Source: Flavisolibacter longurius
GTDB lineage: Bacteria > Bacteroidota > Bacteroidia > Chitinophagales > Chitinophagaceae
Reading direction: 5' to 3'
DNA length: 64,000 bases
Assembly (NCBI GenBank): GCA_013327885.1
Contig: JABUMY010000008.1
Coordinates: forward strand, 1 to 64,000
The translations under genes were made by a program, and so were the position numbers. The notes under the pieces were generated by a model, which saw nothing but the letters and a program-made list of their open reading frames with translations, ran no database searches and was not told where the DNA came from. Below are positions 32,030-49,652 of the stretch, piece by piece. How positions within the stretch are numbered: position 1 is the first letter of the stretch; every line of letters begins with the position of its first letter.

Positions 32030-32755
32030 CTACAACTTTTTGATCATGATATTGCGGAACCAAACATCATCGCCGTGGTCCTGCAGGCCGATCCTTCCTT
32101 TTTTCAACGTGCCAAATGCAGCCATGTTCTTGAACTTACTGCCGGCGATCATTGCCCGCCAGTTGTCATCCCACATGGTGGTTTCTAACGTTTTTTGGCC
32201 ATTAAGATAAAACTCCAGCTTGCCGCCTTTTGACACGATCTCCGCCAGGTTCCATTCGCCTACCGGCTTTGTATTCTGCTTCGATTCAATAAGATCATAC
32301 AGGTCGCCGGAGCGGTGCTTGTGTATTTTTGCATCGGCGTGGCCGTCATTGTCAAGAATCTGCATTTCAGGGCCTGTGTGCCACATGGCTCCGTACTGCG
32401 GATCTTCTTTGGAGTAAAAGATCACACCGCTATTGCCTTTCGGTGAAAGCTTCCATTCCAGCTTCAAATGAAAATCTTCAAACTCCTGGTCGGTAACTAT
32501 ATCGCCACCGGTTGCCGATTGCGGTGCTTTTTTAGCGGCAGCATCTAAGTGAAGAGTACCATCTACTACTTTCCAGGCACTGCCAATTCCGGTTTTGTTA
32601 TAGGTATGCCAGCCATTGGTGGTTTTGCCATCAAAAAGGGATATCCAGCCATCAGCGGCGGCGTTGTTGTTTTCGCTTGATTGCATGGTTGATCTATTTT
32701 GCGTTGAGCAGGACAGCAAAAAAGCTGCTGCCAAGTATACAGGAAGTTTCCGCAT
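32030..32755 (-). CDS. DUF1080 (3-keto-disaccharide hydrolase family) lipoprotein
   Basis: This 241-residue protein has lipobox LLSC (C16). The body is one DUF1080 concanavalin-like domain: WISLFDGKTTNGWHTY, DQEFEDFHLKLEWKL, GNSGVIFYSKE, GPEMQILDNDGH, SGDLYDLI, GEWNLAEIV. The family includes enzymes that cleave 3-keto-glycosides after C3 oxidation, acting in the periplasm or at the surface. Its start overlaps the cytochrome c stop (TAATG), tying it to the electron carrier expected for a C3-oxidising dehydrogenase. Confidence 0.9.
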   Translation of the reverse strand: MRKLPVYLAAAFLLSCSTQNRSTMQSSENNNAAADGWISLFDGKTTNGWHTYNKTGIGSAWKVVDGTLHLDAAAKKAPQSATGGDIVTDQEFEDFHLKLEWKLSPKGNSGVIFYSKEDPQYGAMWHTGPEMQILDNDGHADAKIHKHRSGDLYDLIESKQNTKPVGEWNLAEIVSKGGKLEFYLNGQKTLETTMWDDNWRAMIAGSKFKNMAAFGTLKKGRIGLQDHGDDVWFRNIMIKKL

Positions 32756-33153
32756 TATTGTTGTTTTAAGAGTAGAATGTATTTTACCATCGCCACAGCA
32801 TCGTCATGCGAAAGGTTGGGGTGCGGCGTCATCGGAACCTGTCCCCAAACACCAGCGCCGCCATTGATAATTTTGCCGGCAAGCGAATCTTCTATCCCAG
32901 CCTGGCCCGCATAACGGTCGGCTACTTCCTGGTAAGAAGGTCCGATTACTTTTTCCGATACTTTATGACAGGTAAGGCAATCGCTCTGTCCAATCAGGGC
33001 AAGGCCTTTTTTGTAATCGGGATGCTGGGATACATCTGCTGTTGCTTCTTTTGTAGCGGTTCCGCTGTCGGTAGTGGTGGCGGCCTTGTCGTCATTACTG
33101 CCACAGCCAATTACAAAGGCTGCAAAACCCAGGGCAAGAATTGTCTTTTTCAT
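32755..33153 (-). CDS. Class I-type cytochrome c lipoprotein
   Basis: This 132-residue protein has lipobox VIGC (C17), a low-complexity Thr/Ala/Asp linker, and a single heme site CLTCH (59-63). A later methionine in VPMTPHPNLS is the probable sixth heme ligand. It should be a periplasmic, membrane-anchored electron carrier. Its place between the DUF1080 hydrolase and a TIM-barrel isomerase suggests it takes electrons from the GMC/subunit-3 dehydrogenase encoded at 38-42 kb on the other strand; that pairing is inferred. Confidence 0.9.
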   Translation of the reverse strand: MKKTILALGFAAFVIGCGSNDDKAATTTDSGTATKEATADVSQHPDYKKGLALIGQSDCLTCHKVSEKVIGPSYQEVADRYAGQAGIEDSLAGKIINGGAGVWGQVPMTPHPNLSHDDAVAMVKYILLLKQQ

Positions 33154-33172
33154 ATGCTTACTGCTTTAGTGT

Positions 33173-34228
33173 TTACGAAATTCCTAAGATTTTTTTATTA
33201 AATGCTTCATCGGCGGCAACACTGGCAAAATCATCAAATGTTTTTTCAGTTGCCTGGATGATGTGACGCTGAATAAACGGTGCGCCTTCTTTTGCGCCTT
33301 GCTCCGGCGACTTGATGGCACATTCCCATTCCATCACTGCCCAGCTATCGTAGCCGTATTGCGTTAGCTTGCTGAAGATACCTTTAAAATCAACTTGTCC
33401 GTCACCGGGAGAACGAAAACGTCCGGCACGGTCAACCCATCCCTGGTAACCACCGTAAACACCTTGTTTGCCGGTAGGATTGAATTCGGCATCCTTTACA
33501 TGAAATGCTTTGATGCGTTCGTGGTAAAAATCAATGTAGGCCAGGTAATCAAGCCCCTGCAGCACAAAATGCGAAGGATCGTACAGGAGACAGGCACGGG
33601 GATGATTGTTGGCGGCTTTTAAAAACATTTCGTAGCTGACGCCATCGTGCAGGTCTTCGCCGGGATGCACTTCATAACATACATCCACACCGCATTCGTC
33701 AAACACATTCAGGATGGGCGTCCAGCGACGGGCCAGTTCCTGAAAACCGGTTTCCACCAACCCGGCCGGCCGTTGCGGCCAGGGATAAACAGTTGGCCAT
33801 AACAGCGCCCCGCTGAAGGTAGCATGCGCCGACAGCCCCAGGTTTTGCGACGCTTTGGCCGCCCACTTTAGTTGCTGTATCGCCCATTCGGTTCGTGCAG
33901 CCGCATTGCCATGTACTTCTTTCGGTGCAAAGGAATCAAACAACTCGTTGTAAGCCGGGTGCACGGCCACCAGTTGTCCCTGCAGGTGTGTAGAGAGTTC
34001 TGTTATTTCCAACCCAATCTCTGCCAGCATTCCTTTCAGTTCGTCTGCATAGGTTTTGCTTTCGGCCGCTTTTTGCAGGTCAATGGTGCGACTGTCCCAG
34101 GTGGGTATCTGCACGCCTTTATAACCCAGGTCTTTTGCCCACTGGCAAATGGCCCGCATGTCGTTGAACGGTGCCTGGTCACCCAGGAATTGCGCTAAAA
34201 AAATGCCAGGTCCTTTTATTGTTTTCAT
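33173..34228 (-). CDS. Sugar phosphate isomerase/epimerase family TIM-barrel protein
   Basis: This 351-residue protein of the AP-endonuclease-2-like TIM barrel family has no signal peptide. Metal-ligand-type residues are seen in CYEVHPGEDLHDG, LYDPSHFVLQGLDY, AFHVKDAEF and AVMEWECA. The family includes xylose isomerase-like epimerases and keto-sugar enzymes. It is 19 bases upstream of the cytochrome c gene in an operon with DUF1080, so a role in processing 3-keto sugars in the cytosol is likely but not proven. Confidence 0.88.
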   Translation of the reverse strand: MKTIKGPGIFLAQFLGDQAPFNDMRAICQWAKDLGYKGVQIPTWDSRTIDLQKAAESKTYADELKGMLAEIGLEITELSTHLQGQLVAVHPAYNELFDSFAPKEVHGNAAARTEWAIQQLKWAAKASQNLGLSAHATFSGALLWPTVYPWPQRPAGLVETGFQELARRWTPILNVFDECGVDVCYEVHPGEDLHDGVSYEMFLKAANNHPRACLLYDPSHFVLQGLDYLAYIDFYHERIKAFHVKDAEFNPTGKQGVYGGYQGWVDRAGRFRSPGDGQVDFKGIFSKLTQYGYDSWAVMEWECAIKSPEQGAKEGAPFIQRHIIQATEKTFDDFASVAADEAFNKKILGIS

Positions 34229-34256
34229 GCTAAGTCAATATACAGGTTAAGTGAAA

Positions 34257-34289
34257 TGCGAATAGGCCTATATGCAAATATGCGGATAA
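34257..34289 (+). repeat. Left arm of 33-base inverted repeat flanking the Gfo-isomerase gap
   Basis: TGCGAATAGGC...TGCGGATAA matches the reverse complement of 34428-34460 at 27 of 33 positions. Confidence 0.75.
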
Positions 34290-34328
34290 AGTTTTTGTTT
34301 GCCCAGCAGGATTACCGAACGATGCAGT

Positions 34329-34342
34329 GTGCGACGCAACAG
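34329..34342. repeat. Copy 2 of the GTGCGACGCAACAG intergenic motif
   Basis: Identical to 18337-18350. It lies between the arms of the 33-base inverted repeat, with an A7 run about 30 bases downstream. Confidence 0.55.
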
Positions 34343-34427
34343 GTGCCTACTTCTTATTCTATTGCTGGTAACAAAAAAATGCAGCCATGAAAGAACCGTC
34401 ACGTATCACTATTACCGGCTGAAGCAA

Positions 34428-34460
34428 TTATCCGCACATCGGCATATTCGCTTATTCGCA
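34428..34460 (-). repeat. Right arm of 33-base inverted repeat, directly after the Gfo/Idh/MocA stop
   Basis: Read on the minus strand, TGCGAATAAGC...TGCGGATAA begins two bases after the stop codon of the 34463-35617 gene. It pairs with 34257-34289 across 138 bases. Confidence 0.75.
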
Positions 34461-34462
34461 CA

Positions 34463-35617
34463 TTAAATTGTGAACGGCGTCCATTTTACATCCGAAGCAC
34501 CTGAACGCAACACGTTTTCAATAAAGGCCATGCCGCGTACACCATCATCTATGCCGGGAAAATCGGTCCATTCCGGCGCCGATTCTTTGCCTTCGTTGCG
34601 GGCCGTTACGCACAGCGCAAAATTTCGATAGTGGTTGGCAAAGGCTTCAAAAAATCCTTCGGGGTGTCCCCAGGGCGTACGGGTGTTGTGGCGTGCAATC
34701 GCACTTAAATAATCATTGCCGGCACGAAGCGTTTGGTAAGGTTGGTCCAGCAATCGCAGGTCAAGACTGTTTGGATCGGCATGGCGCCACATCAACCCGC
34801 CTTTTTCACCATATACTTTTATGGTCAGGTTGTTTTCTTCGCCGGCCATGATCTGCGATGCCATCAGCACTCCCGTTGCACCATTATTATATTGTAATAA
34901 CACGGCACCGTCATCATCCAGTTTGCGGCCTTCTACCACAATGTTTAATTGTGCACAAAGCGCCGTTACCTGTAAGCCGGTAACATATTCGGTCAAATTA
35001 AAGGCATGCGTGCCGATATCGCCCATGGCACCGGCCGCACCACTTTGTGCCGGGTCAGTGCGCCAGGCTGCCTGCTTGTCGCCGGTACTTTCTTTAAACT
35101 GCGAGAGCCACCCTTGCGGATAGGTTACAAAGATCTTCCGCACTTTGCCGATGGTACCCTGCCGTACTTGCTCCCTTGCTTCTTTTATCATGGGGTAACC
35201 TGTGTAGGTATGCGTGAGGCAAAACAGGCGGCCGGTGGCTTCTGCTACTTTCTGCAGCTCTTTTGCTTCGGCAAGATCAAAGGTCATGGGCTTGTCCATC
35301 ACTACGTCAAAACCGGCTTCCATGGCTGCTTTGGCTGGAGCAAAATGTACATGGTTGGGTGTAACAATACTTACGATCTCCATGCGCTGGTCCGCAGGCA
35401 GGCTTTTTTCTTTTTCGATCATTTCTTCCCAGTTGCCGTACACCCTTTCATTGGGTAAGGCCAGTTCGGTAGCCATACTTTTCGACCGTTCGGCGTTCGA
35501 GCTAAAAGCGCCGCATACCAGTTCTATCAAGCCGTCCATTGTAGCGGCGGTTCGGTGCACGGCGCCAATAAAGGCACCCGGTCCGCCGCCAATCATTCCC
35601 ATTCTGAGTTTTCGCAT
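34463..35617 (-). CDS. Gfo/Idh/MocA family oxidoreductase (cytosolic)
   Basis: This 384-residue protein has a Rossmann start (LRMGMIGGGPGAFIGAVHR), a GAFSSNAERSK motif, the family catalytic segment VMDKPMTFDLAEAKEL (EKP-like, here DKP), and the C-terminal sheet domain with GAMGDIGTHAFNL. It uses NAD(P) to oxidise or reduce a sugar or inositol. No export signal is seen, in contrast to the paralogue at 39937. Context with DUF1080 and sugar isomerases suggests action on a keto-sugar. It is divergent from the MFS permease gene. Confidence 0.9.
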   Translation of the reverse strand: MRKLRMGMIGGGPGAFIGAVHRTAATMDGLIELVCGAFSSNAERSKSMATELALPNERVYGNWEEMIEKEKSLPADQRMEIVSIVTPNHVHFAPAKAAMEAGFDVVMDKPMTFDLAEAKELQKVAEATGRLFCLTHTYTGYPMIKEAREQVRQGTIGKVRKIFVTYPQGWLSQFKESTGDKQAAWRTDPAQSGAAGAMGDIGTHAFNLTEYVTGLQVTALCAQLNIVVEGRKLDDDGAVLLQYNNGATGVLMASQIMAGEENNLTIKVYGEKGGLMWRHADPNSLDLRLLDQPYQTLRAGNDYLSAIARHNTRTPWGHPEGFFEAFANHYRNFALCVTARNEGKESAPEWTDFPGIDDGVRGMAFIENVLRSGASDVKWTPFTI

Positions 35618-35916
35618 AATTGTATGATTGGTAAAGAGGGTTTGTTATAGCAAACCCGTTCAATTTGCAATCGTATTTGCTGCACTTAATTCAAGGCGTC
35701 TAAATTTAAGACCAGATTTTATTTCGGTGGTGAAATTCTTGGAGCAGGAAAAAATTCCATGTGTATTTTTTGTCCGAAAAAAAAAATTTCGCCTTTTCAA
35801 AAAGCTGTACATTTAAAACCACTTGACAAGCCTTTGAAGTAAACTTTTTTCATGTTTAGAAGCCACTTGCTATATCGCTTGCCGCTGTCCTTTTTCACCC
35901 GTAAACCCCTTCGTAA
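35618..35916. other. Divergent control region of the keto-sugar locus
   Basis: These 299 bases lie between the minus-strand Gfo/Idh/MocA operon and the plus-strand permease operon. They contain a GGGTTTG / CAAACCC hairpin (35638-35644, 35651-35657) just upstream of the Gfo gene and A/T-rich stretches, but no full promoter match. It should hold promoters for both halves of the locus. Confidence 0.4.
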
Positions 35917-37164
35917 ATGAAAGCCACTACCCGTGTGCAGTTGTCCCTGATGATGTTCTTGAACTTTTTTATCTGGGGGGCCTGGTATGTGACCATGGGC
36001 ACCTACCTGGATAAAGTTTTGGGTGCAAGTGGTGTGCAGATCGGTGCTGCGTATAGTGCCATGGCCATTGCCACCATTATTTCGCCGTTTTTTGTGGGCA
36101 TGATCGCCGACCGTTTTTTTGCAGCGCAAAAAGTATTGGGTGTGCTGCACCTGTTTGGCGCTCTTCTTCTTTATTATATTACCACGGTAGATAATCCCTC
36201 TTCGTTTTACTGGGTGCTGCTGTTGTATTCATTGGCGTACGCACCAACACTGGCACTTGCCAATTCCGTTGCGTTTCGCCAAATGAAAGATACCAGCAAA
36301 GAGTTTGCAGGCATCCGGGTATTTGGCACCATCGGCTGGATCGCTACCGGCTGGATGATCGACAAAGTGTTCAACATCGGTACGGAGGAATTGGCTTTTA
36401 CGTTTAAAATGGCGGCCGTTGCATCCATTGTTTTGGGCCTGCTCAGCTTTTTCTTACCCGATACACCACCAAAGGCCAAAGGCACCAAAGCCACGTTCAA
36501 GCAGATACTGGGTGCTGATGCCTTTGTACTTTTTAAAGACCGTTCCTTCGTGGTCTTTTTCATTGCGTCTGTATTGATCTGTATTCCGCTTTCTTTTTAT
36601 TACAGCTTTACCAACCTTTTTCTTACCGAAGCCGGTATGGAAAATGCCACCAGCAACATGACGTTTGGCCAGTTTTCGGAAGCGTTTTTTATCCTGCTGA
36701 TCCCTTTCTTTTTCCGCCGCCTGGGTGTCAAGTGGATGATCGCCATTGGCATGCTGGCCTGGGTGCTGCGTTTTCTTTTCTTTGGCTATGGCGATGCCGA
36801 CGCGGGCCTTTGGATGTTGTTTGCGGGGATCATCCTGCACGGCGTATGCTTTGATTTCTTTTTTGTAACCGGACAAATTTATACCGATAACAAAGCTGGT
36901 CTTTCCATTCAAAGCCAGGCACAGGGCATGATCACCATGGCCACGTACGGCATCGGCATGTGGATCGGCACCCTGCTTTCGGGTTATGTAAAAGAAATGT
37001 ATACGGTCAATAACCTTGTCGATTGGAAAGCTGTTTGGATGGTGCCTGCTGCAATTGCAGTGGTGGTGCTGTTCTTGTTTGTGCTCTTTTTTAAAGACAA
37101 CAGAAAACCTGCCATTACGGAACCCGAAGCAGAGAAAGGCCTGGCCCAAACCCGCTTAACATAG
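35917..37164 (+). CDS. MFS permease of the nucleoside:H+ symporter (NupG/NHS) type
   Basis: This 415-residue protein has 12 predicted transmembrane helices. Characteristic segments are FLNFFIWGAWYVTMGTYL, FVGMIADRFFAAQKVLG, FAGIRVFGTIGWI and LHGVCFDFFFVTGQIY, as in the NHS family. Although E. coli NupG carries nucleosides, Bacteroidota homologues commonly sit beside sugar oxidoreductases, and here the neighbours suggest uptake of a sugar or keto-sugar. It begins the plus-strand half of the locus; the next gene starts eight bases after its stop. Confidence 0.88.
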   Translation: MKATTRVQLSLMMFLNFFIWGAWYVTMGTYLDKVLGASGVQIGAAYSAMAIATIISPFFVGMIADRFFAAQKVLGVLHLFGALLLYYITTVDNPSSFYWVLLLYSLAYAPTLALANSVAFRQMKDTSKEFAGIRVFGTIGWIATGWMIDKVFNIGTEELAFTFKMAAVASIVLGLLSFFLPDTPPKAKGTKATFKQILGADAFVLFKDRSFVVFFIASVLICIPLSFYYSFTNLFLTEAGMENATSNMTFGQFSEAFFILLIPFFFRRLGVKWMIAIGMLAWVLRFLFFGYGDADAGLWMLFAGIILHGVCFDFFFVTGQIYTDNKAGLSIQSQAQGMITMATYGIGMWIGTLLSGYVKEMYTVNNLVDWKAVWMVPAAIAVVVLFLFVLFFKDNRKPAITEPEAEKGLAQTRLT

Positions 37165-37172
37165 AATATCTC

Positions 37173-38057
37173 ATGGAAAGAAGAAAAATGCTAAAAGGCA
37201 TGTTGCTTTCAGGTACCGCTGTTATGGCTTCACCGGCCATGGCGCTGAAAAGCTGTGCAACCAACCCTGTAAATTCCGAAGCGTTGAAAGGAACCATCAA
37301 TCATTCTGTTTGCTACTGGACCTATAACTTCATGCCGCTGGAAGAGCTTTGTCAAACCGTGAAAAGCATTGGCTTTTCGGCCATCGATCTTGTTGGTCCC
37401 AAAGACTGGCCCACGCTGAAAAAATACGGCATTGATTCCTCTATGTGCAATGGTGCCGAGATAAGCCTTACCGAAGGCTGGAACAACAAGCAATACCACG
37501 CACAGTTAATAAAAAATTACACAACACATATCGACCTTGTGGCCGATGCGGGTTATAAAAACCTCATCTGCTTTAGCGGCAACCGCAGGGGAATGGATGA
37601 CGAAACCGGCTTGAAGAACTGCGTCGACGGCCTGAAGCAAATTTTGGCGCAGGCGGAAAAGCGCGGCGTAACCATCATTATGGAACTGCTCAACAGCAAG
37701 ATCGATCACAAAGACTATATGTGCGACCTTAGTTCCTGGGGTGTGGAATTGTGCAAGCGCCTGGGTTCGGCTAACTTCAAGCTTCTGTACGATATTTACC
37801 ACATGCAGATCGATGAAGGTGATGTGATTCGGACCATCAAAAACAATCACCAGTATTTTGGTCACTACCACACGGCAGGTGTGCCCGGCCGAAACGAGAT
37901 CAACGAATCGCAGGAACTGTTTTACCCGGCCATTATGCGGGCCATTGCCGCCACGGGATTCAAAGGATATGTAGCGCAGGAATTTATCCCAACGGGTAAA
38001 GACAAGGAAAGCAAAGTTGCCGCACTGAAAGATGCCGTGCAGCGTTGCGACGTATGA
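37173..38057 (+). CDS. Exported hydroxypyruvate isomerase-like TIM-barrel protein
   Basis: This 294-residue protein has a twin-arginine-like start (ERRKMLKGMLLSG) and a cysteine at LKSC near residue 28 that could be lipidated. The barrel resembles hydroxypyruvate isomerase and other sugar isomerases: VKSIGFSAIDLVGP, IMELLNSKIDH, LLYDIYHMQIDEGDV, GHYHTAGVPGRNE, and EFIPTG. The Glu, Asp, His and Glu residues in these motifs probably bind a divalent metal. It follows the permease by eight bases and precedes the GMC dehydrogenase. Confidence 0.87.
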   Translation: MERRKMLKGMLLSGTAVMASPAMALKSCATNPVNSEALKGTINHSVCYWTYNFMPLEELCQTVKSIGFSAIDLVGPKDWPTLKKYGIDSSMCNGAEISLTEGWNNKQYHAQLIKNYTTHIDLVADAGYKNLICFSGNRRGMDDETGLKNCVDGLKQILAQAEKRGVTIIMELLNSKIDHKDYMCDLSSWGVELCKRLGSANFKLLYDIYHMQIDEGDVIRTIKNNHQYFGHYHTAGVPGRNEINESQELFYPAIMRAIAATGFKGYVAQEFIPTGKDKESKVAALKDAVQRCDV

Positions 38058-38064
38058 CCGTAAA

Positions 38065-38077
38065 TGGTGAATGGTGA
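38065..38077 (+). repeat. TGGTGAATGGTGA word after the isomerase gene
   Basis: This lies seven bases after the stop codon and has the same word family as 30015-30048. Confidence 0.6.
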
Positions 38078-38156
38078 GTAAACATTTGCTTCACGATTCA
38101 TAACCGACCACCTTTCAATCATAATAAAAAACAACAAACACACAAATAAGCAAGAG

Positions 38157-39839
38157 ATGGCAGATAACACGTATGATGCAATCGTTGTTGGCTCCGGTAT
38201 CAGCGGTGGCTGGGCAGCCAAAGAACTAACGGAAAAAGGATTGAAAGTCCTGATGCTCGAACGGGGTGAAGACATCCCCCACGGTCCTGGCTACGTAAAA
38301 GCCAACCGCGAATTGTGGGAAATGCCCCACCGTGGCGGCCGAACGCAGGAAATGATCAACGACTATCCTGTGCTGAAGCGGGACTACCCGCTGAACGAAC
38401 GGAACCTCCACTACTGGGCCAGCGACAAAGACAATCCGTACACTGAAGTCAAGCGCTTCGACTGGTACCGCGGCTACCATGTGGGCGGCCGTTCCCTCAT
38501 GTGGGGACGCCAGAGCTACCGCCTCAGCCCCATTGATTTTGAGGCGAACGCCAAAGAAGGCATTGCCATCGACTGGCCGATCCGTTACAATGACATTGCT
38601 CCCTGGTACAATTACGTAGAAGGTTTTGCCGGTATCAGCGGCAACAAAGACGGTCTGCCGCAACTGCCGGATGGCAACTTTCTCCCGCCGATGGAAATGA
38701 ACTGCGTGGAAAAAGACGTGGCAGCCCGCATCAAGCAAAACTTTGGCGGCAAGCGGGTAATGACCATTGGCCGTGTGGCCAACCTTACCGAGGCTCGTCC
38801 GGAGCAAAACCGCAGCTGCCAGTACCGCGACAAATGCTGGCTGGGTTGTACGTTCGGTGGTTATTTCAGCACACAGTCGGCTACGCTGCCGGCGGCCATG
38901 AAAACCGGCAACCTCACGGTGCGCCCCTTCTCGATTGTAAAAGAGATTATCTACGATAAAAACACAAAAAAGGCAACCGGTGTTCGCATACTTGATGCGC
39001 AAAACAACCAGACCTACGATTATTTCTCCAAGATCGTTTTCCTCAACGCTTCAGCGCTGAACTCGGCCTGGGTACTCATGAATTCGGCAACAGATGTATG
39101 GCCTGATGGCCTGGGCAGCAGCAGCGGCGAGCTGGGTCACAACGTCATGGACCACCACTTCCGCGTAGGCGCCAACGGCCGCGTTGAAGGATTCGATGAC
39201 AAATATGTATACGGCAAACGGCCAAACGGTATTTACGTGATTCGCTACCGCAACATCGGCGACGACAAACGTGATTATGTACGTGGCTTTGGTTACCAGG
39301 GCAGTGCCAGCCGCCAGGGCTGGGGTCGCGATGTGGCTGAAATGTCCATTGGTGGCGACTACAAAGATGCGCTTTGCGAACCCGGCGAATGGAGAATGGG
39401 CATGACCGCCTTTGGCGAAATGCTCCCCTACCATGAGAACCGCATCTACCTGGACAAAACCAAAAAAGACAAGTGGGGTCTTCCGGTGCTTGCGTTTGAC
39501 GTGGAGATCAAAGACAACGAACGCAAAATGCGTGTGGACATGGCCAACGATGCCGTAGAAATGCTCACCGCTGCCGGCCTGAAGGATGTTAGCTCTTATG
39601 ATTCGGATTATGCACCGGGCATGGGTATCCATGAAATGGGAACAGCCCGCATGGGCCGCGATCCCAAGACCTCTGTGCTCAACGGCAATAACCAGGTATG
39701 GGATGCCCCGAACGTATTTGTTACAGACGGCGCTTGCATGACCTCTGCGTCTTGCGTGAACCCTTCCCTTACCTATATGGCCTTAACAGCAAGAGCCGCT
39801 GATTTTGCGGTGAAGGAATTAAAAAAAGGAAACCTTTAA
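38157..39839 (+). CDS. GMC family oxidoreductase, glucoside 3-dehydrogenase large subunit-like
   Basis: This 560-residue flavoprotein has the FAD-binding fingerprint at 11-24 (VGSGISGGWAAKE), VLMLERGEDI, GGRSLMWGRQSYRL, a Cys-rich RSCQYRDKCWLGC segment near 225 that may bind a metal or cluster, and the C-terminal HEMGTARMG and NPSLTYMAL typical of membrane-type GMC dehydrogenases. It has no signal peptide. In fructose, gluconate and glucoside dehydrogenases the large subunit is exported together with a Tat-signal small subunit; such a subunit is encoded at 41548-42177. It probably oxidises a sugar hydroxyl (C3 is the best guess) and passes electrons to cytochrome c. Confidence 0.9.
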   Translation: MADNTYDAIVVGSGISGGWAAKELTEKGLKVLMLERGEDIPHGPGYVKANRELWEMPHRGGRTQEMINDYPVLKRDYPLNERNLHYWASDKDNPYTEVKRFDWYRGYHVGGRSLMWGRQSYRLSPIDFEANAKEGIAIDWPIRYNDIAPWYNYVEGFAGISGNKDGLPQLPDGNFLPPMEMNCVEKDVAARIKQNFGGKRVMTIGRVANLTEARPEQNRSCQYRDKCWLGCTFGGYFSTQSATLPAAMKTGNLTVRPFSIVKEIIYDKNTKKATGVRILDAQNNQTYDYFSKIVFLNASALNSAWVLMNSATDVWPDGLGSSSGELGHNVMDHHFRVGANGRVEGFDDKYVYGKRPNGIYVIRYRNIGDDKRDYVRGFGYQGSASRQGWGRDVAEMSIGGDYKDALCEPGEWRMGMTAFGEMLPYHENRIYLDKTKKDKWGLPVLAFDVEIKDNERKMRVDMANDAVEMLTAAGLKDVSSYDSDYAPGMGIHEMGTARMGRDPKTSVLNGNNQVWDAPNVFVTDGACMTSASCVNPSLTYMALTARAADFAVKELKKGNL

Positions 39840-39936
39840 TAACAATCGTGAAACGAAAAATGGCAAACACAAAACGGAAATAGCACAACGCTCTGTTTTC
39901 AAATTTGACAACTGACGTTTCACCAAAACCTATATC

Positions 39937-41475
39937 ATGTCAGAAAACAAGAACACAACTCCATCCAACTCCAGGAGAGATTTCATCCGGAACACGGCCG
40001 TAACAGCTGCCGGCTTTTTTATTGTACCGCGATTTGTATTGGGCGGTAAAGGTTATGTAGCACCCAGCGATCGGCTGCAGGTAGCCGGGATCGGCGTTGG
40101 TGGAAAAGGCGAAAGCGACATCATGAGCTTTTTCCGGAGTGGCAAAGCCGATATTGCTTTTCTCTGCGATGTGGATGACAGGCGAGCCGCAAAATCCATC
40201 AAGGCATTTCCCAAAGCCAAGTATTACAAGGACTACCGCGAAATGCTCGACAAGGAAGCCAAGAATATCGATGCCGTTTCTGTGTCGACTCCCGACCACA
40301 TGCACGGTGTGCAGGCGCTTGCCGCCATGCAACTGGGCAAGCACGTTTATGTACAAAAGCCATTGACACACGATATTTACGAAGCCCGGGTGCTGACCGA
40401 AGCCGCCAAGCGCTACAAGGTAGTAACCCAAATGGGAAACCAGGGCGCCTCCAGCGATGGCACCCGTGCGATGAAAGAATGGTTTGACGCCGGCATGATC
40501 GGCGATGTGCATACCATCTACGCCTGGACCGACCGCCCGGTATGGCCACAAGGCATCCAGTGGCCGGCACAAAAAGCCGATGTTCCCAAAGAGCTTGACT
40601 GGAACCTTTGGCTGGGCACAGCACCGTATAAAGAGTATGTCGACAAGATCGTTCCGTTTAACTGGCGTGGCTGGTGGGATTATGGCACAGGCGCCCTTGG
40701 CGATATGGGTGCACATATGTTGGAAGTTGCTTTCCGTGTGCTGGACCTGCGCTATGCCAGCGACGTTCAGGCTAGCGTTGGATCGGTTTATGTGGATGAG
40801 TTCAAGCGCGGCTATTTTCCTGAAAGCTGCCCGCCTTCAAGCCATGTAACCCTGACATTCCCCAAAACGGCAAAAACAAAAGGACCTGTAAAAGTTCATT
40901 GGATGGATGGCGGTATTCAGCCCGTACGCCCCGAAGAGCTGGAGCCTAACGAAGTGTTTGGCGATGGTGGCAACGGAACCCTGTTCATCGGCACCAAAGG
41001 CAAAATGATGTGCGGCACGTATGGCACCAATCCAAGGCTGCTGCCCACAAAGCTTACCAAAATGCAAAAGGTAAAGGTTCCTTCCAACAACCCCAATCAA
41101 CCGGCTGTGGAAAGAGAAGAAGTGGCCTATCCTTACCCTGGCGTAAAAACCTCGCTCCCACGGGTACCCGGTGGCGCCGAAGGCCATTATGCCCAGTGGG
41201 TGGAAGCCTGCCAGGCCGGCTATGGCAAAATGGAAGTGAGCTCGCCGTTTGAAGTGGCCGGTCCGCTGACCGAACTGCTGCTGATGGCCAATCTTGCCAT
41301 TCGTGCACACGACGTCCGCGTTCCCCGCACCGATGGCCGCCAGGGCTTCAACTTCCCCGGTCGCAACATCAAGCTGATCTGGGACAACAAAAACATGAAG
41401 GTGACCAATTTTGACGAGGTGAACCAGTTTGTCAAGCGCAAATACAGGGACGGTTTCGAAATGAAATGGTCGTAA
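39937..41475 (+). CDS. Tat-exported Gfo/Idh/MocA family oxidoreductase
   Basis: This 512-residue protein begins with a twin-arginine signal (SRRDFIRNTAVTAAGFF). A Rossmann domain follows (LQVAGIGVGGKGESDI), then VSVSTPDHMHGVQAL, the EKP-like VQKPLTHDIYEARVL, and the C-terminal domain with WWDYGTGALGDMGAHMLEV. Export of an NAD-dependent fold implies tightly bound cofactor, as known for periplasmic glucose-fructose oxidoreductase. It lies between the GMC and subunit-3 genes, so it probably works on the same sugar in the periplasm. Confidence 0.9.
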   Translation: MSENKNTTPSNSRRDFIRNTAVTAAGFFIVPRFVLGGKGYVAPSDRLQVAGIGVGGKGESDIMSFFRSGKADIAFLCDVDDRRAAKSIKAFPKAKYYKDYREMLDKEAKNIDAVSVSTPDHMHGVQALAAMQLGKHVYVQKPLTHDIYEARVLTEAAKRYKVVTQMGNQGASSDGTRAMKEWFDAGMIGDVHTIYAWTDRPVWPQGIQWPAQKADVPKELDWNLWLGTAPYKEYVDKIVPFNWRGWWDYGTGALGDMGAHMLEVAFRVLDLRYASDVQASVGSVYVDEFKRGYFPESCPPSSHVTLTFPKTAKTKGPVKVHWMDGGIQPVRPEELEPNEVFGDGGNGTLFIGTKGKMMCGTYGTNPRLLPTKLTKMQKVKVPSNNPNQPAVEREEVAYPYPGVKTSLPRVPGGAEGHYAQWVEACQAGYGKMEVSSPFEVAGPLTELLLMANLAIRAHDVRVPRTDGRQGFNFPGRNIKLIWDNKNMKVTNFDEVNQFVKRKYRDGFEMKWS

Positions 41476-41482
41476 ACAAATT

Positions 41483-41512
41483 GCAGGGGCACACCGTGGT
41501 GTGTCCCTGCTT
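41483..41512 (+). terminator. Weak terminator or attenuator hairpin
   Basis: A 13-base arm GCAGGGGCACACC (41483-41495) pairs with 41498-41510 with one G-T pair, followed only by TTATT. It lies inside the operon and may attenuate rather than end transcription. CAAACT-like words follow up to the next start codon. Confidence 0.5.
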
Positions 41513-41547
41513 ATTCAAACATCAAACTACAAACTTCAAACTTTACT

Positions 41548-42177
41548 ATGGAACGCAGAGAAGCCGTTAAATACATCAGCATTCTCCTGGGAGGTGCTGT
41601 CATTGGCGCCGATGCTTTTTTGAGTGGTTGTAAAACAAAAACAGGCAGCACCACCGACTGGACAACCGAAGACGTGGCCTTCCTGAACGAGATTGGCGAA
41701 ACCATTCTCCCCCGTACCAGCACACCGGGTGCAAAAGACGCCAACGTGGGCCAGTTTATGACCGTAATGGTCAACGACTGTTACGTAGAGGCTGACCAAA
41801 AAGCTTTCCGCGAAGGTCTTGGCAAACTGAATGACGCCAGCGAGAAAAAGTTCAGCAAAAACTTTATGGGCATCACACCGCAGCAGCGCACCGAGTTGCT
41901 GACAGAACTGGACAAGGAAGCAAAAGACTACCAGAAAAAAGTGGGTGAGTTCAACAGCGCTGAAAATAAAAAAGAAAAAGACGAAATCGCCAAAGGCAAC
42001 AAAGGCTATGTTAAGCAGCACATGGCACCGCACTATTTTACCATGATGAAGCAACTGACCTTGCTAGGCTTCTTTACTTCCCAGGAAGGCATGACAAAAG
42101 CGGTTCGCTATTTGCCGGCGCCAGGCCGCTATGAAGGTTGCGTGCCTTACAAAAAAGGCGACAAAGTGATCGTTTAA
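41548..42177 (+). CDS. Gluconate 2-dehydrogenase subunit 3-like lipoprotein
   Basis: This 209-residue protein has a Tat-like start (ERREAVKYISILLGG) running into a lipobox LSGC (C28). The body matches gluconate_2-dh subunit 3: DVAFLNEIGETILPRTSTPGAKDANVG and the late HYFTMMKQLTLLGFFTSQEG and LPAPGRYEGC. In known complexes this small subunit escorts the GMC flavoprotein through the Tat pathway and stabilises it. It therefore probably anchors the 38157-39839 enzyme to a membrane facing the periplasm. Confidence 0.9.
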   Translation: MERREAVKYISILLGGAVIGADAFLSGCKTKTGSTTDWTTEDVAFLNEIGETILPRTSTPGAKDANVGQFMTVMVNDCYVEADQKAFREGLGKLNDASEKKFSKNFMGITPQQRTELLTELDKEAKDYQKKVGEFNSAENKKEKDEIAKGNKGYVKQHMAPHYFTMMKQLTLLGFFTSQEGMTKAVRYLPAPGRYEGCVPYKKGDKVIV

Positions 42178-42193
42178 CCACTCAAACCCTATC

Positions 42194-43072
42194 ATGAATT
42201 ATCAACGCAGGGATTTTTTAAAGCTTACGGCCGCTTTGGGCGCCGGTCTTGCCTTTGGGCCGCTTACCGGTTGCAGCGCAACGGGAAAAGCACAGTCCAC
42301 CATCAACAACAATTTTGGCCTGCAACTGTATACGCTTCGCGATGACCTGCCCAAAGACCCGAAAGGTGTGCTGACGCAGATCGCATCGTTTGGCTATAAA
42401 GAGTTGGAGGGTTATGAAGGACCGCAGGGACTTTTCTGGGGCATGAGCAACACGGAGTTCAAGTCTTTCCTGGATGGCCTGGGCATGAAGCTCGTCGCCA
42501 GTCATTGCAATGCCCGGCAGGACCTGGAACGCAAGGCTGCCGAAGCCGGTGCCATTGGTGTAAAATACCTGATTGAACCTTTCCTGGGTGCACAAAAATC
42601 CCTGGACGATTACAAGCGGGCGGCAGAACGCTTTAACAAGGCAGGCGAGATCTGCAAGCGCAACGGTTTGCGGTTTGCCTATCACAACCACGACTACAGC
42701 TTTAAGCCGGTAAACGGACAACTGCCGCAGGACGTGATGATGGAGAACACCGACAAAGACCTGGTGGATTTTGAAATGGATATTTATTGGGTGGTAAATG
42801 CCGGCCAGGACCCCGAAGCCTGGTTCCGTAAATACCAGGACCGCTTCCGCCTGGTGCATGTAAAAGACCGCCAGCGGGGTGTTGGCGATACCAGTGAAAA
42901 TGTGTCCGTGGTATTGGGCACAGGCTCCATCAATTTTCCGCAAATCCTGAAAACAGGTGCGGAAAACGGTGTGCAGCATTTTATGGTGGAGCAGGAAGCT
43001 TACGCAGGCACTACGCCACTGGCCGCCGTGAAGGCCAATGCCGAATACATGAAGGCCTTCCGCTTTGCTTAA
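42194..43072 (+). CDS. Exported sugar phosphate isomerase/epimerase family lipoprotein
   Basis: This 292-residue protein has a clear Tat motif (QRRDFLKLTAALGAG) followed by a lipobox LTGC (C27). The TIM barrel shows FGLQLYTLRDDL, GYKELEGYEG, FAYHNHDYSF, DFEMDIYWVVNAGQDP, LVHVKDRQ and MVEQEAY, with His, Glu and Asp residues suited to a metal site. It closes the plus-strand half of the keto-sugar locus, 16 bases after the subunit-3 gene. It overlaps the convergent small lipoprotein gene by four bases. Confidence 0.9.
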   Translation: MNYQRRDFLKLTAALGAGLAFGPLTGCSATGKAQSTINNNFGLQLYTLRDDLPKDPKGVLTQIASFGYKELEGYEGPQGLFWGMSNTEFKSFLDGLGMKLVASHCNARQDLERKAAEAGAIGVKYLIEPFLGAQKSLDDYKRAAERFNKAGEICKRNGLRFAYHNHDYSFKPVNGQLPQDVMMENTDKDLVDFEMDIYWVVNAGQDPEAWFRKYQDRFRLVHVKDRQRGVGDTSENVSVVLGTGSINFPQILKTGAENGVQHFMVEQEAYAGTTPLAAVKANAEYMKAFRFA

Positions 43073-44504: not shown

Positions 44505-46052
44505 TTACTCAGCGCCGTCGGTACGGGCACGTGCCACGGCATGGTTCCCGATGTTCTTACCCACAGTCAATCCCACTTCGCAATCGCTGCGGTAATGAAT
44601 ACCGCCGTACATGCGTGAGATAGAAGCTTCCTGCGCCATGGCTTCGTATTGTTTTGCGTTTTCCGGAAGCAGGTGCCCCAGCACGGTGGCAGCCGCGCCG
44701 CTAAAGGTGGAGTGCCCCGATATATAAGAGGGAAAATTGGGCAAGCCGGTGGTTGTTTTGATAGAAGGGTCCAATTGCGAAGGCCGCGGGTTGAAATAAT
44801 GGAACTTGGTATCCCAGCAAACAATGGCGGCATCCATCATCGAAATATTCAGCAGGGCAAAATTCCTGGCCCACCGCACTTCGCTCCAGTTTTTGGTCAC
44901 AAAATCTTCGGCGGCAATGGCATCCCAATGCCCGGGCGGCGTGTAGGTGCTGATACCATCGGCCCAGTAGTGCACGATACGGATCTGTTCCCGCGTCGGA
45001 TTTTTTGCCATCTCCCCTATCTCTGCCAGCTCTTTTTTCATTTGCGCACTGCCCGTTGACGGTGGTGGCGGCGGACGCAGGGAAACACAAGTAAGCGAAT
45101 CGAGCAAAAGGGATTTTACTTTCCCAAAAACGGGCAACATCGGCGGCCGCTTTGGCGCATCCAGGCTAAGCCAGGGTGTTTCGCCTTTGGCAATGCAGTC
45201 TGTTTCCATTTGTGCCCACAACGCCAGGTTGCCGCCGGCCGTTCCGGCCCTGTCGGTCCGGGCCCTGGCTACAAACTTTTGTGCAACCGCTCTTCCCAAT
45301 GCTTCGCCGGCTTCAAGGTCGCTGCGCACATTGGCACCGGCAATCAGCCTGGCACGGCGGTGTTCTTCGGCTTTTTGCTGGATGAATTCCTGGTCGCCGG
45401 GGAACAGCAGTTTCATTACTTCCACCGCGGCGCCCATCACCACCGCATCTTCCGAAGGATAAGACGGCAGGTCCGATTTGGGTACCAGCACATTTAGGCC
45501 CGCATCCACATGATACGGCGCCGGCCGGTTGTACAATTTTTTATAATGCCAGGCAGCCACCAGTGCGTCATATTGCGCTGTGGCCACATACGCATAAGCC
45601 CTTGCCGCGTAAGGCGGGTTGGCAAAGGGAAATGTAGGGTAAGCAAGCGGGTTGGCCGCATTGGGAACCGGGTAGGTGCCGTCGGCATTCTGGTAAGGCG
45701 GGCGGTTGTGTTTGGCAACCAGGTCACGGAGAATTTCGTTCCAGCGCAACACGGCACCGGCACTCCAATAGGCTACTATTGCTTTTTCATCCGCACTGAC
45801 ATTGGCCTGCCAGCTTCTTAATTCGGCCAGTTGCGCCACGTATTCGGGTGTGTTGGTGGCAATGGGTGCCGGCACGGCAATTTCGTTGGCAGCCGAAAGC
45901 AGAAAGGGCTTCCAGGTACCGGCATTGATATCGTTGTTGACCGGTGCCAGGGCAGGGAAATCCAGCGACCGGTCGCTTTCTGTTTTTGAGCAGGAAAGCG
46001 AAAACAGGATGGTGAAAAAAAGTATCTGTAGGGGAAGAAGTTTCCGTTTCAT
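44505..46052 (-). CDS. Vanadium-dependent haloperoxidase / PAP2-like lipoprotein (B)
   Basis: This 515-residue lipoprotein (lipobox SLSC, C21) has an alpha-helical body and a C-terminal third with the complete vanadate-binding set: KFHYFNPRP (Kx6RP), PSYISGHS, and SRMYGGIHYRSD (SRx5Hx3D). The same pocket occurs in vanadium haloperoxidases and in class A acid/PAP2 phosphatases, so either peroxidase or phosphatase chemistry is possible. The length and the SRMYGGIH form favour the haloperoxidase branch. It is the last gene of the cluster, nine bases after the 46061-46984 barrel gene. Confidence 0.87.
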   Translation of the reverse strand: MKRKLLPLQILFFTILFSLSCSKTESDRSLDFPALAPVNNDINAGTWKPFLLSAANEIAVPAPIATNTPEYVAQLAELRSWQANVSADEKAIVAYWSAGAVLRWNEILRDLVAKHNRPPYQNADGTYPVPNAANPLAYPTFPFANPPYAARAYAYVATAQYDALVAAWHYKKLYNRPAPYHVDAGLNVLVPKSDLPSYPSEDAVVMGAAVEVMKLLFPGDQEFIQQKAEEHRRARLIAGANVRSDLEAGEALGRAVAQKFVARARTDRAGTAGGNLALWAQMETDCIAKGETPWLSLDAPKRPPMLPVFGKVKSLLLDSLTCVSLRPPPPPSTGSAQMKKELAEIGEMAKNPTREQIRIVHYWADGISTYTPPGHWDAIAAEDFVTKNWSEVRWARNFALLNISMMDAAIVCWDTKFHYFNPRPSQLDPSIKTTTGLPNFPSYISGHSTFSGAAATVLGHLLPENAKQYEAMAQEASISRMYGGIHYRSDCEVGLTVGKNIGNHAVARARTDGAE

Positions 46053-48259: not shown

Positions 48260-49606
48260 TTAACGGTGTGTTGTTACTAATGATTGATTGTTGCGAATAC
48301 GGAGCTTTTGTACAATGTGCTGGCCGATGCGCTGGCCGACCTCGTTGCCCAACTCCAGGTCACTGCGGAAATGAATACCGCCATACAGACGCGACATGGA
48401 AGCTTCCAGCGCCGCTTCGCGGAAGGATTTGAAGGAGCGGTCGGCAATGCCAAACTCTCTTTCCGAACTATCGGTAAAGGCAAAGTTGTCGCCAAAATGA
48501 CGGCTCATCACTTCGGCCGCCGCATTGGAAATAACCGAGTGCCCGCTGACAAAAGAAGGGAAAGGCGGTGTTTGCAGGTAAGGCTGCCAGGCCGGGTCAA
48601 GCACCTTGTTGATGACGGTTTCGGGCCGTACGGTGTTGTACTGGTATTTGGCCTTCCAGCAGGCGATAAACCCATCGAAAAGCGCAATGGCTGTTTCGGT
48701 GTAAGCGGCAACGGTTTTGTTGAAATCGGCTCCTGATTTTTGTGCGGCTATTCCCACGATGTTCATCCAATGGCCCGGCGGCGAGAACTTTTTGGTGGCA
48801 TACATCACGTGACCGGTAACATGAAGCCGGAAGGGATTGTCGTCAAAGAAATCGGCAATGTGCTTTTGCTCATCGGTAAGATTATCGATGGTTCTTTTGA
48901 CTTCCATCACTTCGCGACAATAGGCCGATGTACTGTCCTTCATGTCGTAAGACGGCGGTGCGGCCGGCAGGAACTGTGCAGCCGAATCCAGCGTCAACGT
49001 TCGGATGTTGCACCAATGGGGTTCAAGCGCTTGCGAATACATGGGAGGTGTTGGAATCCACCGGCCATCTTCCTGGCGTACGGTGAATTTCTCGGAGCTG
49101 CGGGTTTGGGCATAATTGTCACCCTTGCTCCACTTCAAAATGGTTGCAACGACCGTATCGCTGAACGCTACCGTGGCTTTCAACATATCGCTTGACATGC
49201 CGGCGCTGTCGGCGCCATTTTTCAAGGCGTCGTAATAATCCATCAGCACACCTTCGGGAAACGTAACGGCATTGCCCACTTTTACAAAAGATAAGAGCGC
49301 TGCCAGTTTAAAATCAACAGGCTTGCCGGCTGCTGGCCGTGGCATGGCAGGAAGGTGAGGAATCTGGCCGCTGAGCGACTGGTAAGAACTGTCGCCGGCC
49401 ACGATGCACTCGTACGCGGCTATGTTGGCGTAGGCATAGTTGCGGGAGGCCACCACGGGAGAAAAATTGTTGTAGAGAACAACGTCGTTTAGCTTTTTTA
49501 CCGTTTTACAGAAAAGCAACGGGTCATTGGTGTATTGGGTATAATCCTTTTCCTTACAGGAAAAGAAGCATGCTGCAACAGCCAGCATGAAAATTATTTT
49601 TTTCAT
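48260..49606 (-). CDS. Vanadium-dependent haloperoxidase / PAP2-like lipoprotein (A)
   Basis: From the ATG at 49606 the protein has 448 residues with lipobox FFSC (C17); the frame extends upstream to 49648 without a lipoprotein signal. The full vanadate pocket is present: KYQYNTVRP (Kx6RP), FPSFVSGHS, and SRLYGGIHFRSD. Sequence similarity with protein B is limited to this C-terminal core and the overall layout, so the two are old duplicates rather than a recent tandem. It lies 46 bases after the 185-residue protein gene. Confidence 0.87.
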   Translation of the reverse strand: MKKIIFMLAVAACFFSCKEKDYTQYTNDPLLFCKTVKKLNDVVLYNNFSPVVASRNYAYANIAAYECIVAGDSSYQSLSGQIPHLPAMPRPAAGKPVDFKLAALLSFVKVGNAVTFPEGVLMDYYDALKNGADSAGMSSDMLKATVAFSDTVVATILKWSKGDNYAQTRSSEKFTVRQEDGRWIPTPPMYSQALEPHWCNIRTLTLDSAAQFLPAAPPSYDMKDSTSAYCREVMEVKRTIDNLTDEQKHIADFFDDNPFRLHVTGHVMYATKKFSPPGHWMNIVGIAAQKSGADFNKTVAAYTETAIALFDGFIACWKAKYQYNTVRPETVINKVLDPAWQPYLQTPPFPSFVSGHSVISNAAAEVMSRHFGDNFAFTDSSEREFGIADRSFKSFREAALEASMSRLYGGIHFRSDLELGNEVGQRIGQHIVQKLRIRNNQSLVTTHR

Positions 49607-49652
49607 ACAGAAAATCTCTGGTTCGGATAAGCAAAATGGGAATAACAAAAAA

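Follow-up and report, generated by a model that had tools for sequence, protein, structure and literature searches.

A conserved two-strand locus of Flavisolibacter longurius with a probable role in split-compartment glycoside utilisation by C3 oxidation and elimination

The locus examined here, ten genes at positions 32030 to 43072 of a 64,000-nucleotide stretch of Flavisolibacter longurius DNA (contig JABUMY010000008.1, positions 1 to 64,000; hereafter the window, whose numbering is used throughout), is best approached from the few described systems closest to it. A 2022 publication described loci in which lacABC and DUF1080 genes are combined with those of a transporter, a reductase and two epimerases; lactose, salicin and further glycosides are among the growth substrates for which it found the Caulobacter lacABC genes and cluster, and a similar dehydrogenase in Pedobacter, to be important (PMC9007349). 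The Caulobacter crescentus lacABC and DUF1080 lactose cluster, which has relatives in Pedobacter and Indibacter, is stated there to be important for lactose and to have effects also with salicin and raffinose. In Agrobacterium tumefaciens, a GlycDH/AtOGE/AtHYD/Gfo operon carries out the same four chemical steps that we propose below (PMC10628242), and the lgdA-lgdB1-lgdB2-lgdC levoglucosan pathway of Bacillus smithii likewise proceeds by oxidation, elimination, hydration and reduction to glucose (PMC7676230). The BT2156-BT2160 operon of Bacteroides thetaiotaomicron contains the DUF1080 enzyme BT2157 and a periplasmic dehydrogenase of the BT2158 type (PMC11300592, PMC11501099), and presumably a TIM barrel related to one of those in the window, TIM3 below. 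Finally, Escherichia coli YcjR, a 3-keto-D-glucoside 4-epimerase (PDB 6wn6), is also among the closest known systems.

We propose, with a probability of about 0.78, that the window locus is a split-compartment oxidation/elimination cluster for glycoside utilisation, in which C3 oxidation would be followed by elimination and then by recovery of glucose; the activities, substrates and transport steps of this scheme are predictions drawn from the observed families, conserved active sites, gene order and co-occurrence. An original prediction, made from the DNA letters alone, had read ten genes here as a complete 3-keto-glycoside pathway. Ten open frames do lie across the interval, four on the minus strand and six on the plus strand, with the coordinates and strands that it gave, and all ten products score over the Pfam cut-offs for the families that it named, among them three PF01261 TIM barrels (136, 83 and 60 bits) and two Gfo/Idh/MocA proteins. 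The genes and the region between their divergent halves are as follows.

32030-32755, minus strand: DUF1080 (PF06439) lipoprotein; PF06439 186.8 bits against a gathering cut-off of 26.8 (query without Met1)
32755-33153, minus strand: mono-haem cytochrome c lipoprotein, LacC-like; PF00034 34.7 bits, CxxCH
33173-34228, minus strand: cytoplasmic TIM barrel, 2-hydroxy-3-keto-glucal hydratase by homology; 582.8 bits to PDB 8ro4
34463-35617, minus strand: cytoplasmic Gfo/Idh/MocA oxidoreductase; PF01408/PF22725/PF02894, 368 bits to PDB 3v5n ('Oxidoreductase')
35618-35916, no strand: divergent intergenic region, whose sequence was read; both promoters are presumed to lie here
35917-37164, plus strand: NHS-type major facilitator superfamily (MFS) permease; PF03825 409 bits, TIGR00889 401 bits, below its cut-off of 446
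37173-38057, plus strand: exported TIM barrel TIM2, probable 3-keto-sugar epimerase/isomerase
38157-39839, plus strand: GMC flavoprotein (GMC N and C domains) with a predicted [3Fe-4S] site, putative catalytic subunit of a glycoside 3-dehydrogenase, LacB-like
39937-41475, plus strand: exported Gfo/Idh/MocA protein related to BT2158; NF058561 (BT_2158_fam) 484.2 bits, PDB 8tdf 334 bits
41548-42177, plus strand: PF13618 small subunit (subunit 3) with a twin-arginine lipoprotein signal, LacA-like; PF13618 129.9 bits
42194-43072, plus strand: exported TIM barrel TIM3; 119 bits to PDB 8tcd, 57 bits to PDB 8bvk

In the proposed route, a periplasmic LacABC-type dehydrogenase (the GMC protein with FAD and a predicted [3Fe-4S] cluster, and the twin-arginine-signalled PF13618 subunit) would oxidise the 3-hydroxyl of a glycosyl unit, its electrons leaving for the mono-haem cytochrome c, and the exported BT2158-like protein would offer a second, optional oxidation route. 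The activated C-O bond would then be broken by beta-elimination, tentatively by the DUF1080 protein at alpha-type and by TIM3 at beta-type linkages, giving the aglycone or other sugar together with 2-hydroxy-3-keto-glucal (or 3-ketoglucose where the DUF1080 protein also hydrates). The permease would bring the elimination product into the cytoplasm, where the hydratase would add water to form 3-ketoglucose and the cytoplasmic Gfo protein would reduce this to glucose. Exported TIM2 would epimerise or isomerise 3-keto sugars, and non-gluco units could thereby join the same route. The substrates are most likely plant or disaccharide sugars.

The clearest assignment in the locus is that of the TIM barrel at 33173-34228: by homology it is a 2-hydroxy-3-keto-glucal hydratase, its alignment with PDB 8ro4 ('2-hydroxy-3-keto-glucal hydratase') covering residues 1-350 of 351 (E 2.5e-174), and E186-x-H188, D217 and H243 are kept in 91/91 distinct sequences (for counts of this kind, 4-13 rows per gene were dropped for an internal stop, odd length, identity or one duplicate genome). 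Among 147 genomes of the family, 102 carry both the hydratase and the GMC gene, none the hydratase only, five GMC only and 40 neither (Fisher 7e-31, uncorrected for kinship); for TIM2 and GMC the corresponding numbers are 100, 0, 7 and 40. Strong DUF1080 matches (E<1e-40) occur in 104 genomes, namely in 102/102 with the hydratase and in 2/45 without it. This close tracking of the hydratase by strong DUF1080 genes is the strongest genomic reason to think that the product of DUF1080 cleavage is a glycal in need of hydration. The F. longurius genome itself has one hydratase gene against five GMC proteins at >=35% identity (the window's included), and nine DUF1080 domains over the cut-off, two of them in one frame. 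Up to 21 DUF1080 matches were counted in family genomes, a lower bound, as are the DUF1080 counts of a few genomes (at most 20 candidates were scored), and only one genome (G077) has two full-length hydratases. The single hydratase would be one funnel serving many entry enzymes.

Gene order was compared in 56 loci, one per genome, hand-picked from the upper part of the GMC match list (106 other GMC-positive genomes), several matches near contig ends being skipped; 60 regions were taken, the four from the window's own genome being excluded from the counts. A gene was scored as present when its identity exceeded cut-offs that we set (38-70% by gene) at 30% coverage. In these GMC-chosen loci, subunit 3 is found in 55, TIM2 in 54, the cytoplasmic Gfo gene in 52, the hydratase in 47, DUF1080 in 45 and the cytochrome in 44. 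All four minus-strand genes stand near the GMC gene in 42/56, and they lie opposite to it in 185 of 188 gene matches. Because the arrangement recurs in related genomes, the locus is not a chance grouping, and the co-occurrence of its two strands, which the original prediction had expected of related genomes, is seen in these 42 loci as in the 102/147 genomes above. Beyond the family, loci of Pedobacter and Mucilaginibacter have the gene set rearranged, with every gene on a single strand. Records of Xanthomonas sacchari, Sphingomonas parapaucimobilis and Hymenobacter volaticus hold annotated sets of the same kinds, with tblastn identities to the window of 63, 66 and 76% for the hydratase and 70, 50 and 73% for GMC; for TIM2 the values are 57% in Xanthomonas and 65% in Hymenobacter, whereas the Sphingomonas TIM barrel closest to it has no more than 24%.

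The originally predicted cleavage, which would need no classical glycoside hydrolase, is supported, and two proteins of the locus are candidates for it. The DUF1080 protein gives 157.5 bits to PDB 8rr2 ('3-keto-disaccharide hydrolase domain-containing protein') and groups with PDB entries of that type; that it hydrolyses 3-keto-disaccharides is doubtful, a B. theta relative being described as an eliminating lyase (PMC13273386). By analogy, the window protein would be a 3-keto-glycoside lyase, probably with hydration activity and likely preferring alpha-linked substrates. We take the B. theta lyase to be BT2157. TIM3, for its part, resembles PDB 8tcd, presumably of B. thetaiotaomicron origin, and PDB 8bvk, which we equated with the Agrobacterium eliminase AtOGE from its length. 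The metal and catalytic residues published for AtOGE are His132, His134, Asp163, His189 and Glu233 (PMC10628242). Compared with these, the TIM3 site (H164-x-H166, E194-x-D196, H222, E266) has the same HxH/D/H/E pattern at nearly equal spacing, and H164, H166, D196, H222 and E266 are kept in 56/56 distinct sequences. TIM3 is thus a probable 3-keto-beta-glycoside eliminase, having the residue set of the Mn-dependent TIM-barrel eliminases. Because AtOGE favours beta-linked substrates (PMC10628242), the DUF1080 protein and TIM3 may jointly cover both anomers.

A LacABC-type gene set (GMC protein, PF13618 subunit and c-type cytochrome) is encoded together in the window; we take LacA, LacB and LacC to be a PF13618 small subunit, a GMC protein and a c-type cytochrome, respectively. 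PF13618 and PF06439 both give matches in the Caulobacter control genome. The best PDB matches of the GMC protein are large subunits of fructose and glucose dehydrogenases (117 bits to fructose dehydrogenase with phmmer), as against 46.6 bits (blastp) to BetA, the choline dehydrogenase of E. coli. The leading NCBIfam model is pyranose oxidase with 72.5 bits, followed by choline dehydrogenase with 58.8 and cholesterol oxidase with 57.2; each of these scores is far below cut-off. The GMC proteins of sugar loci score 268 (Rhizobium), 292 (Pantoea) and 830-859 bits (Xanthomonas and Hymenobacter), and the reading of the protein as a choline dehydrogenase was dropped on the contrast of 46.6 with 268-859 bits. 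These scores, which come from different programs and not from a tree, set the protein nearer to sugar dehydrogenases than to choline dehydrogenase; a place among choline or alcohol oxidases would have counted against the original prediction. C221, C227, C231, H492 and N535 are kept in 110/110 distinct sequences, and the three cysteines align with the cysteine stretch of fructose dehydrogenase; they presumably correspond to the [3Fe-4S] ligands of the fructose and glucose dehydrogenases. The triple is missing from the Pantoea and Rhizobium GMC proteins and from BetA, and no subunit 3 is annotated beside these in the stretch seen.

Subunit 3 keeps R3R4 in 106/106 distinct sequences and gave no match to a solved structure in the PDB by sequence or by fold; it may yet be kin to the small subunit of fructose or glucose dehydrogenase. 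Because the GMC protein has no export signal by eye and subunit 3 has a twin-arginine lipoprotein signal, subunit 3 probably carries its partner across the membrane. The cytochrome, with CxxCH in 78/78 distinct sequences, fits the role of electron acceptor of the dehydrogenase, by analogy with the mono-haem c that takes electrons from a glucoside 3-dehydrogenase (PMC9915066). The C3 oxidation that the original prediction ascribed to GMC protein, subunit 3 and cytochrome is thus supported, and the BT2158-like protein is probably a second, optional glycoside 3-dehydrogenase.

Further GMC genes occur in the same genome and in related loci. On contig C33 of the same genome (L090 6691-11473), a second GMC gene, 71% identical, has on one side a DUF1080 gene and on the other a quinoprotein-type dehydrogenase that includes a cytochrome c domain; this may be an independent unit of sugar oxidation whose products reach the single hydratase. 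Another pair of subunit 3 and GMC genes (GMC 48% identical) lies 4 kb past the window end (L091 8154-10397); a GH20 hexosaminidase and a sugar kinase of the FGGY type are encoded close by, a setting that suggests amino-sugar glycosides as substrates. In L054, L061, L066, L080, L103, L107 and L108 the locus itself contains diverged GMC genes in tandem, from two to six of them and 47-76% identical to the GMC gene of the window, which likely reflect substrate diversification of the dehydrogenase. Four loci from metagenome-assembled genomes (L144, L154, L157 and L171) keep TIM2, subunit 3, TIM3 and the BT2158-like gene, L154 and L171 also the hydratase and the cytoplasmic Gfo gene.

The division between compartments was judged by eye from the N-termini (twin arginine or lipobox). 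Lipoprotein or twin-arginine signals are seen on the DUF1080 protein, the cytochrome, TIM2, TIM3, subunit 3 and the BT2158-like protein, and none on the hydratase and the minus-strand Gfo protein. Because these signals would put oxidation and cleavage in the periplasm, hydration and reduction in the cytoplasm, the permease probably imports a 3-keto sugar or 2-hydroxy-3-keto-glucal rather than the intact glycoside, which supports the predicted import of products. A relative of the cytoplasmic Gfo gene is the neighbour of the hydratase gene, or stands close to it, in records from Xanthomonas (30% identity), Sphingomonas (49%) and Hymenobacter (63%), and also in Pantoea (27%), Agrobacterium (46%) and Azospirillum (48%), the hydratase and Gfo relatives standing with ABC transporters in the last two. 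On a Pantoea plasmid, a glucokinase gene adjoins a hydratase relative (62%); glucose is therefore a likely product. Of the two oxidoreductases in the original prediction, the cytoplasmic one is most simply read as a probable NAD(P)H-dependent reductase of 3-ketoglucose, regenerating glucose, rather than as another oxidase. On the Pantoea piersonii plasmid (L225, typed mobilizable), genes for a GMC protein, hydratase, Gfo protein, glucokinase, DUF6379 protein and xylose isomerase-like protein are grouped, in what looks like a locus for C-glycoside breakdown.

Three isomerases had originally been counted in the locus; the three TIM barrels are there, one of them a hydratase and one with a beta-eliminase site, and only TIM2 resembles an epimerase or isomerase. 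It bears the E, D, H, E metal site of 3-keto-sugar and ketose epimerase TIM barrels, and its match to hydroxypyruvate isomerase (TIGR03234, 92.4 bits) is below the curated cut-off of 353.45. A third lyase was considered and rejected: the catalytic histidine of the AtOGE kind, two residues past the strand-5 metal ligand, is absent in 131/131 sequences, position 173 being Leu in 99/131 and Phe in 32/131. A C-glycoside lyase entry, DgpB-C, stands at Foldseek rank 29 for TIM2, and the fold alone is not decisive. The most likely role of TIM2 is the epimerisation or isomerisation of 3-keto sugars, by which non-gluco units would be admitted to the route. It is possible, although we would not bet on it, that it is specifically a periplasmic 3-keto-sugar epimerase flipping C4 or C2, turning 3-keto-galactosides, 3-keto-mannosides or 3-ketogalactose into the gluco form accepted by the lyases, the hydratase and the reductase. 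If true, this would account for the use of lactose and many further glycosides through one locus of the LacABC type that has just a single hydratase, and would fill in the fate of 3-ketogalactose left open in PMC9007349. TIM2 also occurs as a lone exported gene in some marine Flavobacteriia (L159 9001-9867 and L189 8881-9780; Arenibacter, Flagellimonas), beside genes that by eye appear to be pyrG and yidC, and therefore has some role without neighbouring partners.

Other explanations of the locus can be weighed against this evidence. Oxidation might be followed by true hydrolysis, the periplasmic DUF1080 protein freeing glucose or aglycone directly and the hydratase and reductase serving a side product or a different substrate. 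In PMC9007349, DUF1080 proteins are regarded as hydrolases of 3-keto-glycosides and Caulobacter mutants show a phenotype on lactose, and PF06439 is named accordingly; nevertheless, the 102/102 against 2/45 distribution of strong DUF1080 genes is hard to explain if the hydratase is unneeded, the B. theta enzyme is described as an eliminating lyase (PMC13273386) and TIM3 has an eliminase site, and we consider true hydrolysis unlikely. Far less probable is a GMC complex that acts as an aldose or alcohol dehydrogenase, making sugar acids by C1 or C2 oxidation, and happens to neighbour a 3-keto pathway driven by the BT2158-like protein. This idea draws on the closest solved GMC relatives (fructose and glucose dehydrogenases), on the BT2158-like protein being able, in principle, to start the pathway alone, and on the four metagenomic loci that keep its gene and the rest without GMC. 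Against this, 40/56 relatives, in which the rest of the locus mostly persists (GMC there by selection), have no BT2158-like gene in the stretch examined, and the Caulobacter LacABC-type enzyme is reported to oxidise at C3 (PMC9007349). Least probable of all, by a little, is a cyclitol or inositol cluster in which IolE-like, IolG-like and NHS-type proteins would oxidise, dehydrate and import an inosose. The myo-inosose-2 dehydratase model TIGR04379 does match the hydratase (68 bits) and TIM3 (54 bits), and both Gfo proteins weakly match IolG models, but these scores are far below the curated cut-offs (290 and 355 bits), as opposed to the 583 bits of the hydratase to its namesake, and the inositol pathway was dropped on that account. 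DUF1080 proteins, moreover, are not known to take part in the breakdown of inositol.

Oxidation followed by elimination has itself to be held against a number of observations that weigh on the other side. The wild-type B. theta lyase seems to hydrate as well (PMC13273386), which would make the hydratase partly redundant, and in PMC9007349 DUF1080 proteins are assumed to hydrolyse outright, a member is cited as an endo-xanthanase/lichenase, and Pedobacter DUF1080 mutants had no lactose phenotype, redundancy being suspected; in B. theta, deletions of BT2157 and BT2158 left growth on raffinose-family sugars normal (PMC11501099). The permease is found in only 22/56 of the stretches examined, TIM3 in 35/56 and the BT2158-like gene in 16/56, and the permease and TIM3 are, because of these numbers, not obligatory; the BT2158-like protein stays under the curated NF058561 cut-off of 750 bits and is a relative, not an equivalog member. 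The four metagenomic loci lack GMC between TIM2 and subunit 3, the rest of the stretch standing; 22/80 TIM2 loci show no GMC in the stretch examined, some being short contigs; and the GMC paralogue on C33 keeps the cysteine triple with no subunit 3 match nearby, so this motif is not a strict tracker of subunit 3. The co-occurrence counts are uncorrected for shared ancestry. By tblastn, the DUF1080 proteins of the Xanthomonas, Sphingomonas and Hymenobacter records are only 23-27% identical to the window's. Outside Bacteroidota, likeness is looser than the annotation would suggest: in Xanthomonas and Sphingomonas the DUF1080 proteins stand at 23 and 27%, TIM3 relatives reach 28 and 30%, the Xanthomonas and Sphingomonas cytochromes gave no match to the window's cytochrome, and the Sphingomonas MFS transporter gave none to the permease.

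Each strand has its genes packed in operon-like fashion: one base is common to the DUF1080 gene and the cytochrome gene, 8 bp separate the permease gene from TIM2 and 16 bp subunit 3 from TIM3, and 299 bp lie between the divergent halves. The flanking genes look unrelated, with a Mur ligase upstream and DUF72 and PAP2-type proteins downstream. Two PAP2-superfamily proteins are encoded in the window (44505-46052 and 48260-49648), the first with a weak, sub-cut-off similarity to the helical domain of vanadium chloroperoxidase; they are possible vanadium haloperoxidase-type enzymes.

The locus is real, complete and conserved, and the kind of pathway is already known. Most of the steps that the original prediction thought possibly undescribed have been described (PMC7676230, PMC10628242, PMC9007349), and only for the TIM2 step was no description found in the literature searched. 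What is new lies in TIM2, with its putative role, and in a small subunit that gave no match of solved structure, and the remaining puzzle is narrowed to these two parts. The pathway is widespread, given the 102/147 sampled family genomes and similar gene sets in Gamma- and Alphaproteobacteria, and the records examined label its TIM barrels merely "TIM barrel protein" or "sugar phosphate isomerase/epimerase". A named hydratase, a probable eliminase and a compartment for each step now lend themselves to concrete, cheap tests.

Compared with the B. theta operon, the window has its BT2158 relative as an optional extra; to our knowledge, the BT2156-BT2160 operon has no GMC/subunit 3/cytochrome c dehydrogenase. 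The Bacillus smithii pathway, like the window, uses two TIM-barrel-type proteins and a Gfo protein, but it is NAD-dependent, acts on an anhydrosugar and has no GMC, cytochrome or DUF1080 gene among its four pathway genes (PMC7676230). The Caulobacter crescentus cluster is similar by description, and the window may differ from it in having TIM3 and the BT2158-like protein. The account of the Caulobacter, Pedobacter and Indibacter systems settled neither the two epimerases nor the reductase, nor what becomes of 3-ketogalactose (PMC9007349); in the window locus, one TIM barrel is identified as a hydratase. The likeness to the Agrobacterium operon lies in the hydratase, a full-length relative of PDB 8ro4, and in the eliminase site common to TIM3. 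A related Agrobacterium plasmid locus has ABC transporters instead. Unlike in the Agrobacterium operon, the window's oxidation and cleavage enzymes are provided with export signals and the electrons should reach cytochrome c, so that only the hydratase and the reductase would work in the cytoplasm.

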